Below are positions 8,232 to 27,388 of a stretch of DNA of 55,553 nt, piece by piece (positions within the stretch are counted from its first letter, which is position 1; each line of letters begins with the position of its first letter). Origin of the DNA: Acidobacteriota bacterium. Lineage in GTDB: Bacteria > Acidobacteriota > Terriglobia > Terriglobales > SCQP01. The position numbers and the translations under genes are program-made. The notes beneath the pieces were generated by a model, which worked only from the letters and a program-made list of their open reading frames with translations, searched no databases and was not told where the DNA came from. The stretch spans positions 1 to 55,553 of the forward strand of contig SCQP01000006.1 of the NCBI GenBank assembly GCA_004299485.1, in the 5' to 3' direction.

Positions 8232-12434
<4,203 letters not shown>

Positions 12435-21918: not shown

Positions 21919-21981
21919 GTTGCGGCCGTAACCGGCGTATCGGCGGGACGTATTAGTGTCCATCCGAACCACGAGGAGCCT

Positions 21982-24900
21982 ATGCGCCCGCCTCTACGGT
22001 TTTATCATGTTGCGTTCCTGGCAGCCGCGCTCGCAACGCTGCCGCTTATTGGGCAGACCGGCAAACCGGTCTTTGCCGCCCAAATCTCGGGCCGCGTCGA
22101 AGCTGACGGTTTGGCCATTCCCGGCGTTACCGTCACCATCACCGATCCCGCCACCGGCCAGCATTACGTCACCACCACGGATGAGGCCGGCCGTTTCACT
22201 GCCCGCGTGGCCCATCCCGGCGTGTTTGCCATCGAGACCGAAATGCTCGCCTTTGCGCCCTTCAAGTCGCAGGTGACCGTCCCATCCTCCGGCGCTGCCC
22301 CAGCGCCATTGCAACTGCAACTGGCGCTGGCAACCGGGCCTACGGCGACTACCGTGGCGCAGATTCAACCGCGCAGCGCGGCAAAGGGGGAGGCCGACCA
22401 ACGGGGCCAGCCTGCCAGTGGCAGGTTGGCGGGGCGAAGCTCCTCTAGTGGTGGCGCGAGCCGCTACAGGCAGCTCGACGTGAGCCAGACGGGCGAAATC
22501 ACCGGCAACGCCGACGCTGGCGCCGTCGACAGCGGCATCGCCGGCATGAGCGACACCGCCGCCACCGATGCCACCGTCGTCGCCGGCGCCGCCAGCGAGG
22601 ACGAGCAACCCATGAATGGCCGGCAAATTCAGGCGATGCTGCACGCCAACGGCGGCATCCCCGGCGCCCCTGCCGGCGGCGGGGGACGCGGCGGCTTTGG
22701 CGGCCGGGGCAGTGGTGGCTTCGGCGGCGGCGGCGGCCGCTTCAACTTTCGCAGCTTCCAAAGCCGCTTCAATCAGCCCCACGGCAGCCTCAGCTACTCG
22801 CTTGCCGATTCTGCCCTCAACGCCCTGCCCGATTCCCTCAACGGCCGCTCCTCGACTGTGCATCCGCCCAACGTCGCCAACCAGTCCTATTCGGCTTCCG
22901 TCAGCACGCCGCTGGTCATTCCCGGCGTCTTCAACGATCACGGCAAGACGCATTTGTTCTTCAGCTACAGCGGCGCCCATGATGCCGAGCTCAGCAACGT
23001 TAGCGCCCTGGTGCCGACGCGGCTCGAGCGCCAGGGCGATTTCCAGGGTTTGACCAGCCGCAGCGGCACGCCTATCACCATCACCAACCCGCAGACCGGC
23101 CAGCCTTTCAACAGCAACACCATTCCCACCGGCGACATCTCGGCCGCAGCGGCGGCGTTGCTGGCCTTCGTGCCACTGCCCACGCCCGGCGCGGTGGGCG
23201 ACTTCAACTACACCAATACCGTCAACTCGCTCACCACCCGCAACCGCATCTCGGTGCGCGTGAACCATAGCTTCGGCTCCTCCTCCGGCGGAGGCCCGGG
23301 CTTTTTCCGCCGTGGCCGCAACCTCAGCTTCAGCCTCAACTACGAAGGCGGGCACGCCAATCAGCCCGGCGTCTTTTTCCCCTACGTCGCCGGCGTGACC
23401 AACACGCGCGGCATCAATACGCGCCTGGGCTATACGCAGCCGCTCGATGGCTGGATCAACAGGTTCAGCCTGAGCTACAACCGCAACCGCAGCGACGCCA
23501 ACAATCTCTACGCCAATGTCCGCAACGTCGCCGCGCAGGCGGGCATTCAGGGCGTTGCGCAGGACTCCAACGCCTGGGGCCTGCCCACGCTCAACTTCAC
23601 CGCTTCCGGCTTCACGCCGCTGCGCGACATCGCGCCCAATTTCGTCCGCTCCCAAACCACCTCCCTCAGCGACGGCATGATCCGCCGCATGGGCCGCCAC
23701 AACATCCGCTTCGGCGGCGACTTCCGCTGGCTGCAGAGCAACCCCGACACCGATCCCGCCCCCAACGGCGTTTTCAGCTTTGACGGTCAGTACAGCGGCT
23801 TCGATTTCGCCGATTTTCTGCTGGGCCTGCCGCAACAGACTTCCGAGCGCTTCGGCGGCGGAGTGTTTTATTTCCGCCAGATCGAGCCCGACCTCTACTT
23901 CAACGACAACTGGCAGGTGCTCGGCAATCTCACCCTCAACTATGGCCTGCGCTGGGAATACATTTCGCCCTACTCCGAACTCGACAACCGGCTCACCAAT
24001 CTCCTCGTCGGTTCCAGCTTCAGCTCGCTTACGCCAGTAGTTGCCGGCGCTGCGGGCGTACCCGCAACCATCGTGCAGCCCGAGTACGGCCACTTCCGCC
24101 CCACGCTCGGTTTCGCCTGGCGTTCCTGGGCGAACATGATCGTCACCGGCGGCTTCGGCATGGCCTACAACACCGGCGCCTACGCCAATATCGCCACCGC
24201 CCTCGCCTATCAGTCGCCCTTCATCGTCAATCAGGCCAACCTCGGCACGGCGGCCACACCGCTGAGCCTGACCAACGGTTTTGCCGGCGCCTCCACCGCG
24301 GTCAACACCTACGGCGTCAATCCCGGCTACCAGATCGGCTACTCCTATCTTTGGGATATCGATCTTCAGCGCACGGTGGCGCAGGTCTGGGTGCTCAATC
24401 TCGACTACAGTGGCGCGCGCGGCATTCATCTCGATCAGTTGCGCGCCCCCAACCGCACCCCCACCGGCCTGCTCTATCCCAACCTGCCGCCCTTCCTCTA
24501 TGACACCACCGGCGGCAACTCGCTCTACAACGGCGGCAGCTTCATCGTCAGCCGCCGCCTCAGCCAGAGCGTGGGCCTACGCGCCACCTACACTTGGTCC
24601 AAAATGATGGACGACGCCTCCCAGATCGGCGGCGGTGGCGGCGAAGGCGGCCTCATCGCCCAAAACGATCTCGACCTCGCCAACGAATGGGCGCTCTCCA
24701 GCGGCAACCAGACGCAGCGCTTGCATCTCGCCTACGAATGGCAGCTTCCCTACGGCCTCAATCATCACTGGGGTGACCGCGCCTCCTTCTGGAGTTCGGT
24801 GCTGGGGGACTGGCAGTTCACCGGCTCGTTCACCGCCGATAGCGGCCAGCCCTTCACCCCGCTGGTGAGCAACGTCTTCTCCAATGCCCAGGGCTTGCAG

Positions 24901-25263
24901 GCGCTGGGCGTCTCCGCGCCCCTGCGCGCCGATGTCACCGGCGCCGCCGTTGCCAAGGCCGATCCCTCGCTCACCGGCTTTTTTAACACCGCCGCCTTCA
25001 CCGCTCCCGCCGCCGGCGCCTACGGCACCGCCGGCCGCAACCTCATCATCGGTCCCGGCCAGATCGATCTCGACACCACCTTGAGCAAAACCTTCCGCAT
25101 GGGCGAATTCCGCTCGCTCGAAGTCCGCTTCGCCGGCACCAACGTGCTCAACCATCCCAACTGGGCCGGTCTGGACACCAACCTCAACTCCCTTACCTTC
25201 GGTGACATCACCGGCTTCGGCGCGCCGCGCCAGATCACCTTCACCGCCCGTTACAGGTTCTAA
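21982..25263 (+). CDS. Oar-like TonB-dependent receptor with carboxypeptidase-regulatory domain
   Basis: 1093 aa. The ATG at 21982 has GAGGAG upstream and starts a signal peptide. A CarboxypepD_reg-like beta-sandwich follows (about 35-115; ISGRVEADGLAIPGVTVTIT). Next are a linker holding an in-frame repeat (about 136-163), a Gly/Arg-rich stretch (about 232-256) and a plug plus large outer-membrane beta-barrel ending in aromatic RYRF. Typical of the acidobacterial Oar-like family, thought to move large oligomeric substrates across the outer membrane. The VWFA gene follows after 4 nt, a frequent pairing in the phylum. Confidence 0.88.
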   Translation: MRPPLRFYHVAFLAAALATLPLIGQTGKPVFAAQISGRVEADGLAIPGVTVTITDPATGQHYVTTTDEAGRFTARVAHPGVFAIETEMLAFAPFKSQVTVPSSGAAPAPLQLQLALATGPTATTVAQIQPRSAAKGEADQRGQPASGRLAGRSSSSGGASRYRQLDVSQTGEITGNADAGAVDSGIAGMSDTAATDATVVAGAASEDEQPMNGRQIQAMLHANGGIPGAPAGGGGRGGFGGRGSGGFGGGGGRFNFRSFQSRFNQPHGSLSYSLADSALNALPDSLNGRSSTVHPPNVANQSYSASVSTPLVIPGVFNDHGKTHLFFSYSGAHDAELSNVSALVPTRLERQGDFQGLTSRSGTPITITNPQTGQPFNSNTIPTGDISAAAAALLAFVPLPTPGAVGDFNYTNTVNSLTTRNRISVRVNHSFGSSSGGGPGFFRRGRNLSFSLNYEGGHANQPGVFFPYVAGVTNTRGINTRLGYTQPLDGWINRFSLSYNRNRSDANNLYANVRNVAAQAGIQGVAQDSNAWGLPTLNFTASGFTPLRDIAPNFVRSQTTSLSDGMIRRMGRHNIRFGGDFRWLQSNPDTDPAPNGVFSFDGQYSGFDFADFLLGLPQQTSERFGGGVFYFRQIEPDLYFNDNWQVLGNLTLNYGLRWEYISPYSELDNRLTNLLVGSSFSSLTPVVAGAAGVPATIVQPEYGHFRPTLGFAWRSWANMIVTGGFGMAYNTGAYANIATALAYQSPFIVNQANLGTAATPLSLTNGFAGASTAVNTYGVNPGYQIGYSYLWDIDLQRTVAQVWVLNLDYSGARGIHLDQLRAPNRTPTGLLYPNLPPFLYDTTGGNSLYNGGSFIVSRRLSQSVGLRATYTWSKMMDDASQIGGGGGEGGLIAQNDLDLANEWALSSGNQTQRLHLAYEWQLPYGLNHHWGDRASFWSSVLGDWQFTGSFTADSGQPFTPLVSNVFSNAQGLQALGVSAPLRADVTGAAVAKADPSLTGFFNTAAFTAPAAGAYGTAGRNLIIGPGQIDLDTTLSKTFRMGEFRSLEVRFAGTNVLNHPNWAGLDTNLNSLTFGDITGFGAPRQITFTARYRF
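22387..22469 (+). repeat. In-frame repeat (family B, copy 1) in the TonB receptor gene
   Basis: Begins GGGGAGGCCGACCAACGGG and ends GGCGCGAGCCGCTACAG, and matches 25550-25615 at both ends. The centre differs and contains the hairpin CTGCCAGTGGCAG. It is translated as GEADQRG...SGGASRY, in the same frame as the copy in the VWFA gene (GEADQRE...GGASRF). Confidence 0.75.
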
Positions 25264-25267
25264 CGCC

Positions 25268-27388
25268 ATGAAACGCGCCTTCCTGTTCGCTGGCCTGCTG
25301 TTGCTCCCGCTCGCGGCGCAAGCGCCGCAATTCAAATTCAAGGCCACCACCAATCTGGTGCTGGTCAACCTGACCGCGCGCGACGCCCATGGCAACCTCA
25401 TCACCAATCTCAAGCCCAGCGACATCACCCTGCTCGAAGACGGCAAGCCGCAGCACATCCTCAGCTTCGATTTCGAAAATGTCGATGCGCGGACGGCCCC
25501 AGCCACTGCCGACGCAGCCAACAACCGCCCCCTTGGCGAGGTCACCAACGGGGAGGCCGACCAGCGGGAGGCCCGGGGCGGAGCCCCGCCTAAAGGCGGC
25601 GCGAGCCGCTTCCAGAACCGCCGCCTGATGGTCCTGTACTTCGACCTCACCACCATGCAGCCTGACGACGTCCAGAACGTCATGCAGCAGGCCGAAGCCT
25701 TCGTCAATAAGCAAATGCAGCCCGCCGATCTGGTTGCCATCGCCACGCTGGGTAATTCGCTCCAGGTCAACCAGGACTTCACCAGCAACAAGACGGCGCT
25801 GCGGAACACGCTGCGCGGCCTCAATCCCGCTACCGCTGCCGGCTACGCCGCTGGTGCCACCGGCACGACCGAGGGCACCGCCGATAACGGCGACAGCTTC
25901 GCCGCCGACGACACCGAGTTCAACATCGCCAACGCCGACCGCAGCCTCGAAGCGGTCGAATCCATCTGCGACATGCTGCGCGGCGTCGACCAGAAAAAAT
26001 CGCTCATCTACTTCTCCAGCGGTATCCAGCGCTCCGGCGTGGATAACGAAATCACGCTGCGCTCGGCGGTCAATTCCTGCGTCAAATCCAACGCTTCCAT
26101 CTACAGCGTCGATGCCCGCGGCCTGCAGGCCAACCCTCCCGGCGGCGCGGCCGACGCCGGCAGCATCCGCGGCCGCTCCGCCTTCAACGGCGGCGCACAG
26201 TCGGCCACGCTCAACGCCCAGTTCGCCCAGCAGGAAACCATCTCCAATCTGGCCACCGATACCGGCGGCCGCGCCTTCCTCGCCTCCAACGATTTCGGCC
26301 GCGTCTACACCCAGGTGCAGCGCGACACTCGCTCCTACTACCTGCTTGGCTACAGCAGCACCAATCACGCCGAGGACGGCAAGTACCGCAAAATCCGCAT
26401 CGTCATCGACCGCCCCGGCGCGCGCGTTACGGCGCGCCCGGGCTACTTCGCACCGCGCGACATCCACCACATGAATACGGCCAGTCGCCGCCAGCAGCTC
26501 GACGAAGAGCTCAACGCCGACGTTGCCGACCACTCCCTCGATCTCTACCTCGCCGACGCCTGGTTCCGGCTCAGCCCCTTCCGTTATTTCGTCCCCGTCG
26601 CCATCACCGTTCCCGGCGATGAAGTTCCGCTGCACGGCATCGACCCCAAGGCGGCGCCGGAAGTCGACGTTGCCGGCGAAGTCATCGACCAAGCGGGGAG
26701 AAAACTCGATCACGTCTACCAGACCATCAGGCTCACGCCCGAGATCGCCGGTCCGGGCCAGCAATTACGCACCAGAAACCTCCAGTACACCACCGGCTTT
26801 GTGCTTTCGCCCGGGCAAAAATATCAAATCCGCTTCGCCGTCCGTGAAAATCAAACCGGCCAGATGGGCGCCTTCGAGACCGTGCTCACCATCCCCAACG
26901 TCGGTGCCGACGAAACCCAGCAGCCGCACGTGCTCGCCATGAGTCCGGTGCTGGTCGGCTCGCAATTCCGTGCGGTCCGCCCCGACGCCGAAGACCCGCT
27001 CACGGCCTCCGGCCGCGCCCTGGTGATGAGCGTCAGCCACGTCTTCTCTTCCAGCCAGCACCTCTACCTGTACTTTGAGGTCTACGATCCCAAGCTCCTC
27101 AAGCGCGACCGCGCGCCAGGCAAGGCCCACTCCGAGGACGCCATCAAGCTGCTGACCAACGTCGCCTTCTACCACGGCCGCGTCAAGGCCTTCACCAGCC
27201 AGGCCACCACCACCGAGCGCCTCACCGACCCGCGCCGCGGCGCCGCGGTCATCGAGCTCGACGTCCCCCTGTCGGAGCTCAAGCCCGGCTACTACCTCTG
27301 CCAGGTCAATGCCGTCGACCCCTCCGCCACCCGCTTCGCCTTCCCCCGCGTCCCCGTGCTCGTCCGCCCCACCAGCGACGGGAAGTAG
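25268..27388 (+). CDS. VWFA-related acidobacterial domain protein
   Basis: 706 aa. ATG 25268 is used because it starts a signal peptide (MKRAFLFAGLLLLPLAAQAP); it lies 4 nt after the upstream stop with no clear Shine-Dalgarno, so coupling is likely. An N-terminal strand region has TTNLVLVNLTARDAHGNLIT. The von Willebrand A fold (about 118-410) starts RRLMVLYFDLTTM, where the DxSxS metal site reads DLTTM. An approximately 300-aa beta-rich C-terminal domain follows. The N-terminal pattern matches the acidobacterial VWFA family (TIGR03436). It carries an in-frame repeat just before the VWA domain. Confidence 0.88.
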   Translation: MKRAFLFAGLLLLPLAAQAPQFKFKATTNLVLVNLTARDAHGNLITNLKPSDITLLEDGKPQHILSFDFENVDARTAPATADAANNRPLGEVTNGEADQREARGGAPPKGGASRFQNRRLMVLYFDLTTMQPDDVQNVMQQAEAFVNKQMQPADLVAIATLGNSLQVNQDFTSNKTALRNTLRGLNPATAAGYAAGATGTTEGTADNGDSFAADDTEFNIANADRSLEAVESICDMLRGVDQKKSLIYFSSGIQRSGVDNEITLRSAVNSCVKSNASIYSVDARGLQANPPGGAADAGSIRGRSAFNGGAQSATLNAQFAQQETISNLATDTGGRAFLASNDFGRVYTQVQRDTRSYYLLGYSSTNHAEDGKYRKIRIVIDRPGARVTARPGYFAPRDIHHMNTASRRQQLDEELNADVADHSLDLYLADAWFRLSPFRYFVPVAITVPGDEVPLHGIDPKAAPEVDVAGEVIDQAGRKLDHVYQTIRLTPEIAGPGQQLRTRNLQYTTGFVLSPGQKYQIRFAVRENQTGQMGAFETVLTIPNVGADETQQPHVLAMSPVLVGSQFRAVRPDAEDPLTASGRALVMSVSHVFSSSQHLYLYFEVYDPKLLKRDRAPGKAHSEDAIKLLTNVAFYHGRVKAFTSQATTTERLTDPRRGAAVIELDVPLSELKPGYYLCQVNAVDPSATRFAFPRVPVLVRPTSDGK
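25550..25615 (+). repeat. In-frame repeat (family B, copy 2) in the VWFA gene
   Basis: A 66-bp segment with ends matching 22387-22469. The internal hairpins are CGGGGCGGAGCCCCG and CCGCCTAAAGGCGG. It is translated as GEADQREARGGAPPKGGASR between the N-terminal strands and the VWA fold. Confidence 0.75.

Follow-up and report, generated by a model that had tools for sequence, protein, structure and literature searches.

A short three-hairpin DNA repeat carried in frame by two adjacent genes and by unrelated housekeeping genes of an acidobacterium

The stretch of DNA analysed here (the window) comprises 55,553 nucleotides (nt) of contig SCQP01000006.1 from an Acidobacteriota bacterium (assembly GCA_004299485.1; Terriglobales, SCQP01). 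The genome that holds it, G000, has 3,303,212 bases in 22 contigs and is 98.8% complete. Two adjacent genes of the window each contain, in frame, one copy of a short repeat whose parts are predicted hairpins, named H1, H2 and H3. The features are listed below; match scores refer to R1, a covariance model of the repeat based on 15 of its short copies.

21979..25263, + strand: host gene 1, an outer-membrane barrel protein with CarboxypepD_reg and OMP_b-brl_4 (Pfam), TonB-dependent receptor-like
22386..22466, + strand: long-form copy, in frame in the TonB-dependent-receptor-like gene, encoding GEADQRGQPASGRLAGRSSSSGGASRY (R1 match, 41.9 bits)
22392..22404, + strand: long copy, 5' part of H1 (GGCCGACCAACGG), 3' arm replaced (alignment of long and short copies)
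22406..22430, + strand: long copy, extra hairpin GCCAGCCTGCC-AGT-GGCAGGTTGGC, of the same kind as in G000:C7:141603
22431..22443, + strand: long copy, H2 hairpin GGGGC-GAA-GCTCC
22451..22464, + strand: long copy, H3 hairpin GTGGC-GCGA-GCCGC
25268..27388, + strand: host gene 2, a VWA-domain protein, TIGR03436 acidobact_VWFA (NCBIfam)
25549..25611, + strand: short-form copy, in frame in the VWFA gene, encoding GEADQREARGGAPPKGGASRF (R1 match, 80.5 bits)
25555..25573, + strand: short copy, H1 hairpin GGCC-GA-CC-AGC-GG-GA-GGCC (consensus fold; paired changes)
25574..25588, + strand: short copy, H2 hairpin C-GGGGC-GGA-GCCCC-G (consensus fold)
25596..25609, + strand: short copy, H3 hairpin GCGGC-GCGA-GCCGC (consensus fold; paired changes)

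Both copies have the ends GGGGAGGCCGACCA(A/G)CGGG and GG(T/C)GGCGCGAGCCGCT, and both are read in the same frame (GEADQR...GGASR). By model match they measure 81 and 63 nt, and the 18-nt difference arises because the first copy is a long form with an additional hairpin. These shared ends, the common frame and the difference in length had been described in the initial annotation and were borne out. Exact end motifs occur in the window at these two copies only, and matches with one or two mismatches are at chance level. In the receptor-like protein the encoded segment spans residues 135-162, between CarboxypepD_reg (35-113) and OMP_b-brl_4 (265-1086). In the VWFA protein it spans residues 94-115, within the TIGR03436 acidobact_VWFA span and directly ahead of RRLMVLYFDL.

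When G000 was searched with R1, 40 matches reached E<=1, of which 34 also reached E<=0.001. A two-ended pattern gave nine exact matches in the same genome, compared with none for its reversed control. Chance similarity of two linkers is ruled out by this control together with the 34 model matches. Hence, the proposal of one modular repeat family lying in frame in both genes stands, with 34 copies at E<=0.001, while its restriction to two adjacent genes does not: the family is also present in other genes, including those for PheT, NuoM and NuoG. Two degenerate copies, at G000:C10:8187-8250 and 8305-8363, lie in the same orientation about 55 bases apart.

The short unit, of about 60 nt, is made of three hairpins: H1 (GGCC-GA-CC-ARC-GG-GA-GGCC), H2 (GGGGC-GNA-GCCCC) and H3 (GCGGC-GNRA-GCCGC). 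Read along the unit, the order is GGGG(A/G)AGCC-GA-CC-ARC-GG-GA-GGC, then GGGGC-GNA-GCCCC, a short TAAA-like linker and GCGGC-GNRA-GCCGC. The core is nearly constant in most copies of G000. At least five copies have the long form (window 22386, C7:141603, C16:12387, C18:95678 and C7:33764), in which a further long hairpin, for which there are two kinds, takes the place of the 3' arm of H1. Alignment of 15 copies, inspected by eye, indicates that the two ends of the element are not inverted repeats of each other. The GNRA-type loop of H3 and the GNA loop of H2 occur on one strand only.

Pairing was examined in two ways. In an alignment of the 34 copies, standard pairs make up 97.4% of pair cells and four pairs show changes on both sides, a number reached in none of 500 shuffles; this alignment was fitted to R1 and is therefore biased towards the model. 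An independent test used loci retrieved by a pattern in which any bases are allowed at the outermost H1 pair. Among the pattern matches listed, 115 of 150 sites have complementary bases at this pair, mostly GC, TA and CG, compared with 62 expected. Such a value was reached in 0 of 20000 shuffles, a count that is not a probability because the tested loci are related to one another. A control position next to the outermost pair was at chance (11 sites, 10.9 expected). The predicted hairpin assignment rests on conservation and paired changes, not on folding energy.

To locate the copies relative to genes, we called genes with our own codon-usage script, in the window and, for each of the other copies, in about 8 kb of surrounding sequence. 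Of the 34 copies, 13 are completely enclosed by a called gene; another 12 straddle the edge of one, and nine are outside called genes. About 91% of the retrieved loci was called coding, and yet only 13 of 34 copies are fully genic, which amounts to a depletion in genes. The length of the model match is divisible by three in 13/13 genic copies, compared with 8/21 of the others (Fisher p=0.00024). All ten copies in sense orientation are read in one frame, GEADQREARG.AP.KGGASR, and in each the unit begins, as GGG GAG, at the first base of a codon; one of them, C16:204911, is additionally overlapped by an antisense gene call. Three further genic copies are antisense only, and the three share one frame. 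A second sense frame is free of stops in eight of the ten sense copies, yet it is not used; among the sense frames, net charge is lowest and hydrophobic residues are fewest in the one that is used. By translation of this frame, a copy adds about 20 amino acids to its host. Some genic copies lie near the C-terminal end of the host (L264, L266 and L283, and antisense L256 and L268), where the gene end is least certain. In genes, the element is kept only with a length that is a multiple of three and in a frame that gives a stop-free, hydrophilic peptide of mixed charge.

The hosts, as identified by NCBIfam and PDB matches, include NuoM, NuoG, PheT, an ABC ATPase, a sigma-54 regulator, a histidine kinase, a HAD hydrolase and the VWA protein of the window; one more host has only weak, protein-kinase-like matches. 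The initial annotation had placed the segments in linkers ahead of a folded domain. This is accurate for the receptor-like protein, where the copy separates two domains, and the VWFA copy precedes RRLMVLYFDL from inside the TIGR03436 span; the family as a whole, however, is not confined to linkers and interrupts conserved housekeeping proteins. The NuoM and NuoG copies are on the same contig, about 6 kb apart. This single nuo region (G000:C7:213832-221655) thus holds two copies, in parallel with the two copies in the neighbouring genes of the window.

PheT gives a single match in G000, and NuoM has a second homologue elsewhere in the genome, 44% identical. The insert appears as a gap in alignments to the solved E. 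coli NuoM and T. thermophilus PheT. It is absent from NuoM in 3/3 relatives (G004, G001, G005) and from PheT in 6/6 (G002, G003, G004, G005, G007, G009). At the DNA level, G000 has the 63-nt element in NuoM where G004 has six bases. Within alignment coverage, the peptide was found in none of five VWFA orthologues and in none of five TonB-like orthologues, two of which begin within the place. The VWFA orthologues have linkers of other sequence at the site, comparable in length in four of five and shorter in the fifth. Because orthologues carry other linkers there, the element may have replaced existing sequence in the two window genes instead of being added to it. When NuoG and the ABC ATPase were inspected for a clean empty site, neither offered one, and the ABC ATPase alignment is only suggestive. 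Altogether, the element is dispersed, sharp-edged and absent from orthologous sites. A segment without further copies and shared by orthologues, which the initial annotation had named as the outcome that would speak against a repeat, is contradicted on both counts: there are 34 copies, and the segment is carried by 0/5 orthologues of each window gene, 0/6 of PheT and 0/3 of NuoM.

R1 matches were found in 8/41 genomes and 3/16 genera, the genome of the window included. In G003 and G004, which belong to the same genus, H1-H2 is kept and another 3' hairpin follows in six of seven copies inspected (L101, L107, L108, L113, L118 and L119), while L100, also a same-genus copy, has the usual one. A pattern made from the core matched 11/396 Acidobacteriota genomes (own included) in 2/211 genera, with no control matches. 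Across genera the H1-H2 core is kept, and H3 and the 5' part are exchanged. Conserved ends with an exchangeable core, as initially proposed, therefore describes only the long versus the short copies within G000, where the core of most copies is nearly constant; across genera the arrangement is the reverse. The hairpin modules vary from copy to copy and from genus to genus, and the core is what they have in common.

The H1-H2 pattern was also run over the whole genome collection. It gave at least 120 matches, of which 80 were named by organism, and among the matches listed most come from Edaphobacter, Granulicella, Terriglobus and other Acidobacteriales. Their loci include 122 distinct cores followed by varying hairpin modules (type A 51, B 38, D 86, E 60), with an inverted partner upstream of 78 of the 122. 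Single matches in Geodermatophilus, Glycomyces and an Actinobacteria bin, also among those listed, have long gaps and were discarded as chance-like in G+C-rich DNA. The Edaphobacter, Granulicella and Terriglobus elements (L133-L252) are long mosaics of hairpin modules, and many of their module loops start with G and end with A (GAA, GCGA, GCGCA, GGCA). In two pairs of Edaphobacter-type strains (L182/L252 and L335/L219), the element is found in one strain and is missing at the orthologous place of the other, near stop codons. The sites without it hold unrelated replacement sequence, so that no precise target site can be read.

Outside the bacteria, the genome of Halobacteriales archaeon QS_9_67_17 has, on several contigs, a multi-copy structured repeat with the exact H1 core GCCCGACCAACGGGAGGGC (L148, L173, L176, L193). 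Another locus of this archaeon, L177, has an AGC-loop form of the H1 core, and L229 looks similar to the QS_9_67_17 loci. As a single family is concerned, the haloarchaeal resemblance may be a coincidence. No match to the element was found in phage and plasmid records at the sensitivity used. Three IMG/VR stretches match the H1-H2 pattern, and two of them share sequence around the match; in one IMG/VR contig (L254:4686-4718) the pattern lies inside a hairpin that, by eye, looks like an integron attC-type site.

A second repeat family of G000, about 114 nt long, also contains H1 (GCCCGACCANCGGGAGGGC). The H1 pattern detects 12 copies with sharp ends (L367, L368, L369, L372, L373, L377, L378, L381, L383, L385, L388 and L389), ten of which share 89-97% identity with the consensus along about 115 nt while two match its 3' part only. 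It gave no Rfam match. Two copies stay open in seemingly conserved enzymes, which we take, from their motifs, to be EgtD-like and protoporphyrinogen-oxidase-like.

The behaviour of the element is that of protein-coding palindromic repeats, the closest kind being the Rickettsia palindromic elements (RPEs) and intragenic repetitive extragenic palindromic (REP) sequences. Rickettsia RPEs and Wolbachia palindromic elements, as presented in excerpts of PMC10969869 and PMC3767692, are palindromic repeats of one genome that occur both in intergenic DNA and, in frame, within numerous unrelated genes that function, where they encode a recurring peptide. The likeness is one of behaviour in genes, drawn from description and not from sequence: the features that define the RPE kind were found here, namely a dispersed multi-copy palindrome, in-frame presence in unrelated genes, a peptide in one frame and absence from orthologues. 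The acidobacterial element differs from RPEs in its size (about 60 nt, not 100-150), its G+C richness and its three hairpins, which vary between copies and genera. Excerpts of PMC3733652 describe intragenic REPs of Opitutus terrae, Thioalkalivibrio and others (GTAG and CGTC REPs) that add 20-30 residues, with an intergenic bias and stop codons at their edges. The resemblance extends to the in-gene hairpin repeat, the roughly 20 added residues, the intergenic bias and the stop codons at the edges. In contrast, no tag tetranucleotide is seen in the present element, its genome has no PF01797 match, and its unit has three hairpins instead of one hairpin or a dimer.

The terminal inverted repeat (TIR) elements of Acidobacteria reported in the same excerpts (the Koribacter ORF1552 family; TIRtrons; PMC3733652) are of moderate copy number and have the motif GGGGWSAS. 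They share moderate copy number and phylum with our element, but GGGGWSAS is not its start, and it is by this described motif only that the two are set apart. The Koribacter family may be related to the Edaphobacter-type relatives of the element. The bacterial interspersed mosaic elements (BIMEs) of enterobacteria are mosaics of palindromic units and other short motifs; they differ from the acidobacterial element in host and probably in sequence, and are not known for in-frame gene insertions. BIMEs are named in PMC3733652. With regard to protein-coding palindromic repeats, PMC2996958 mentions Methanocaldococcus as well. No description of this family in Acidobacteria, or of its core sequence, was found in the literature searched.

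Our preferred explanation, to which we assign a probability of about 0.8, is that the two window segments belong to a mobile DNA element that is short, palindromic, non-autonomous and made of three hairpins. Such an element would spread through copying of its single-stranded hairpin form by an enzyme. Insertion itself would be indifferent to reading frame, and purifying selection would remove insertions that break the frame or are badly tolerated. A surviving genic copy would provide its host with a loop or linker that is about 20 residues long and neutral, and copies adjoining gene ends may additionally serve as transcript-end hairpins.

Several observations weigh against this explanation. 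The folding energy of the single window copies is unexceptional relative to dinucleotide shuffles (z -1.87 and -0.67). No target-site duplication is seen at the one clean empty site, in NuoM. Relatives of both window genes and of NuoG have linkers of other sequence and often of similar length, so that pure addition is not evident at these sites. The gene calls do not come from a standard gene finder, and the peptide in the host proteins is a predicted translation. Lastly, the tyrosine (Y1) transposase family PF01797 has no match in G000, and the H1 motif was found at none of eight Y1 loci of relatives, retrieved with about 1.5 kb on each side.

The latter two results bear as well on the possibility that we are dealing with classical REP/REPIN elements mobilised by a REP-associated Y1 transposase. 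The element agrees with REP reports in its size and hairpins, in its bias towards intergenic sites, and in having copies within genes and others that abut stop codons, and such transposases with terminal repeats exist in the phylum (excerpts of PMC3733652). Besides the lack of PF01797 in a genome that is nearly complete and of H1 at the Y1 loci, where R1 matches were unconvincing, neither GTAG nor CGTC tags are seen by eye at the ends of the 15 aligned copies, and the element-bearing genomes G037 and G022 are also without PF01797. We thus consider a classical REP origin unlikely. A primarily structured RNA, such as a transcript-end or regulatory hairpin with the in-gene copies as by-products, would explain why the GNRA-type and GNA loops are found on a single strand, and also the paired changes and the many copies beside gene ends. 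Loops of this kind are, however, very stable in single-stranded DNA too. Furthermore, Rfam gave no match at gathering score besides tRNAs, with only a sub-threshold chance match for the first window copy, and orientation relative to neighbouring genes is not uniform; we give this idea rather little credence.

That the uniform frame reflects a codon-phase preference of insertion and not selection on the peptide is similarly improbable. It would account for the identical phase of all ten sense copies although a second frame is stop-free in eight. On the other hand, selection alone would favour the low net charge and scarcity of hydrophobic residues of the frame in use, and the copies are few. 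An ordinary protein motif conserved in the two neighbouring genes, or a linker duplicated recently, is hardly conceivable as the origin of the shared ends. The genes are indeed adjacent and both have low-complexity linkers at the site, but unrelated proteins carry the same segment, none of the five orthologues of each window gene has it, and the same DNA occurs in copies outside called genes and antisense in three further genes. A conserved protein motif was accordingly rejected, on the copies outside the two window genes and the orthologues without the segment.

A bolder extension of the mobile-element explanation is a long shot. H1, with two GA/GA steps in a short stem, might be a portable recognition signal within otherwise different modular repeat families, so that an unnamed machinery would copy any single-stranded hairpin assembly that contains it. 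This speculation draws on the two families of G000, the Edaphobacter, Granulicella and Terriglobus mosaics and the repeat of one haloarchaeon. If true, the combination of a portable H1 and a module set tuned in this lineage to be harmless in one translated frame would make the element a mobile source from which proteins gain new loops.

The best-known protein-coding palindromic repeats are those of intracellular Rickettsiales, and the papers cited report them from Opitutus and a few others as well; here, a modular family is found in a genus of Acidobacteriota. Relatives with empty sites exist, and insertion tolerance, frame preference and the mobiliser are therefore directly testable. That a single-copy tRNA synthetase and a subunit of complex I carry clean insertions suggests that new protein segments arise repeatedly from short hairpin DNA.

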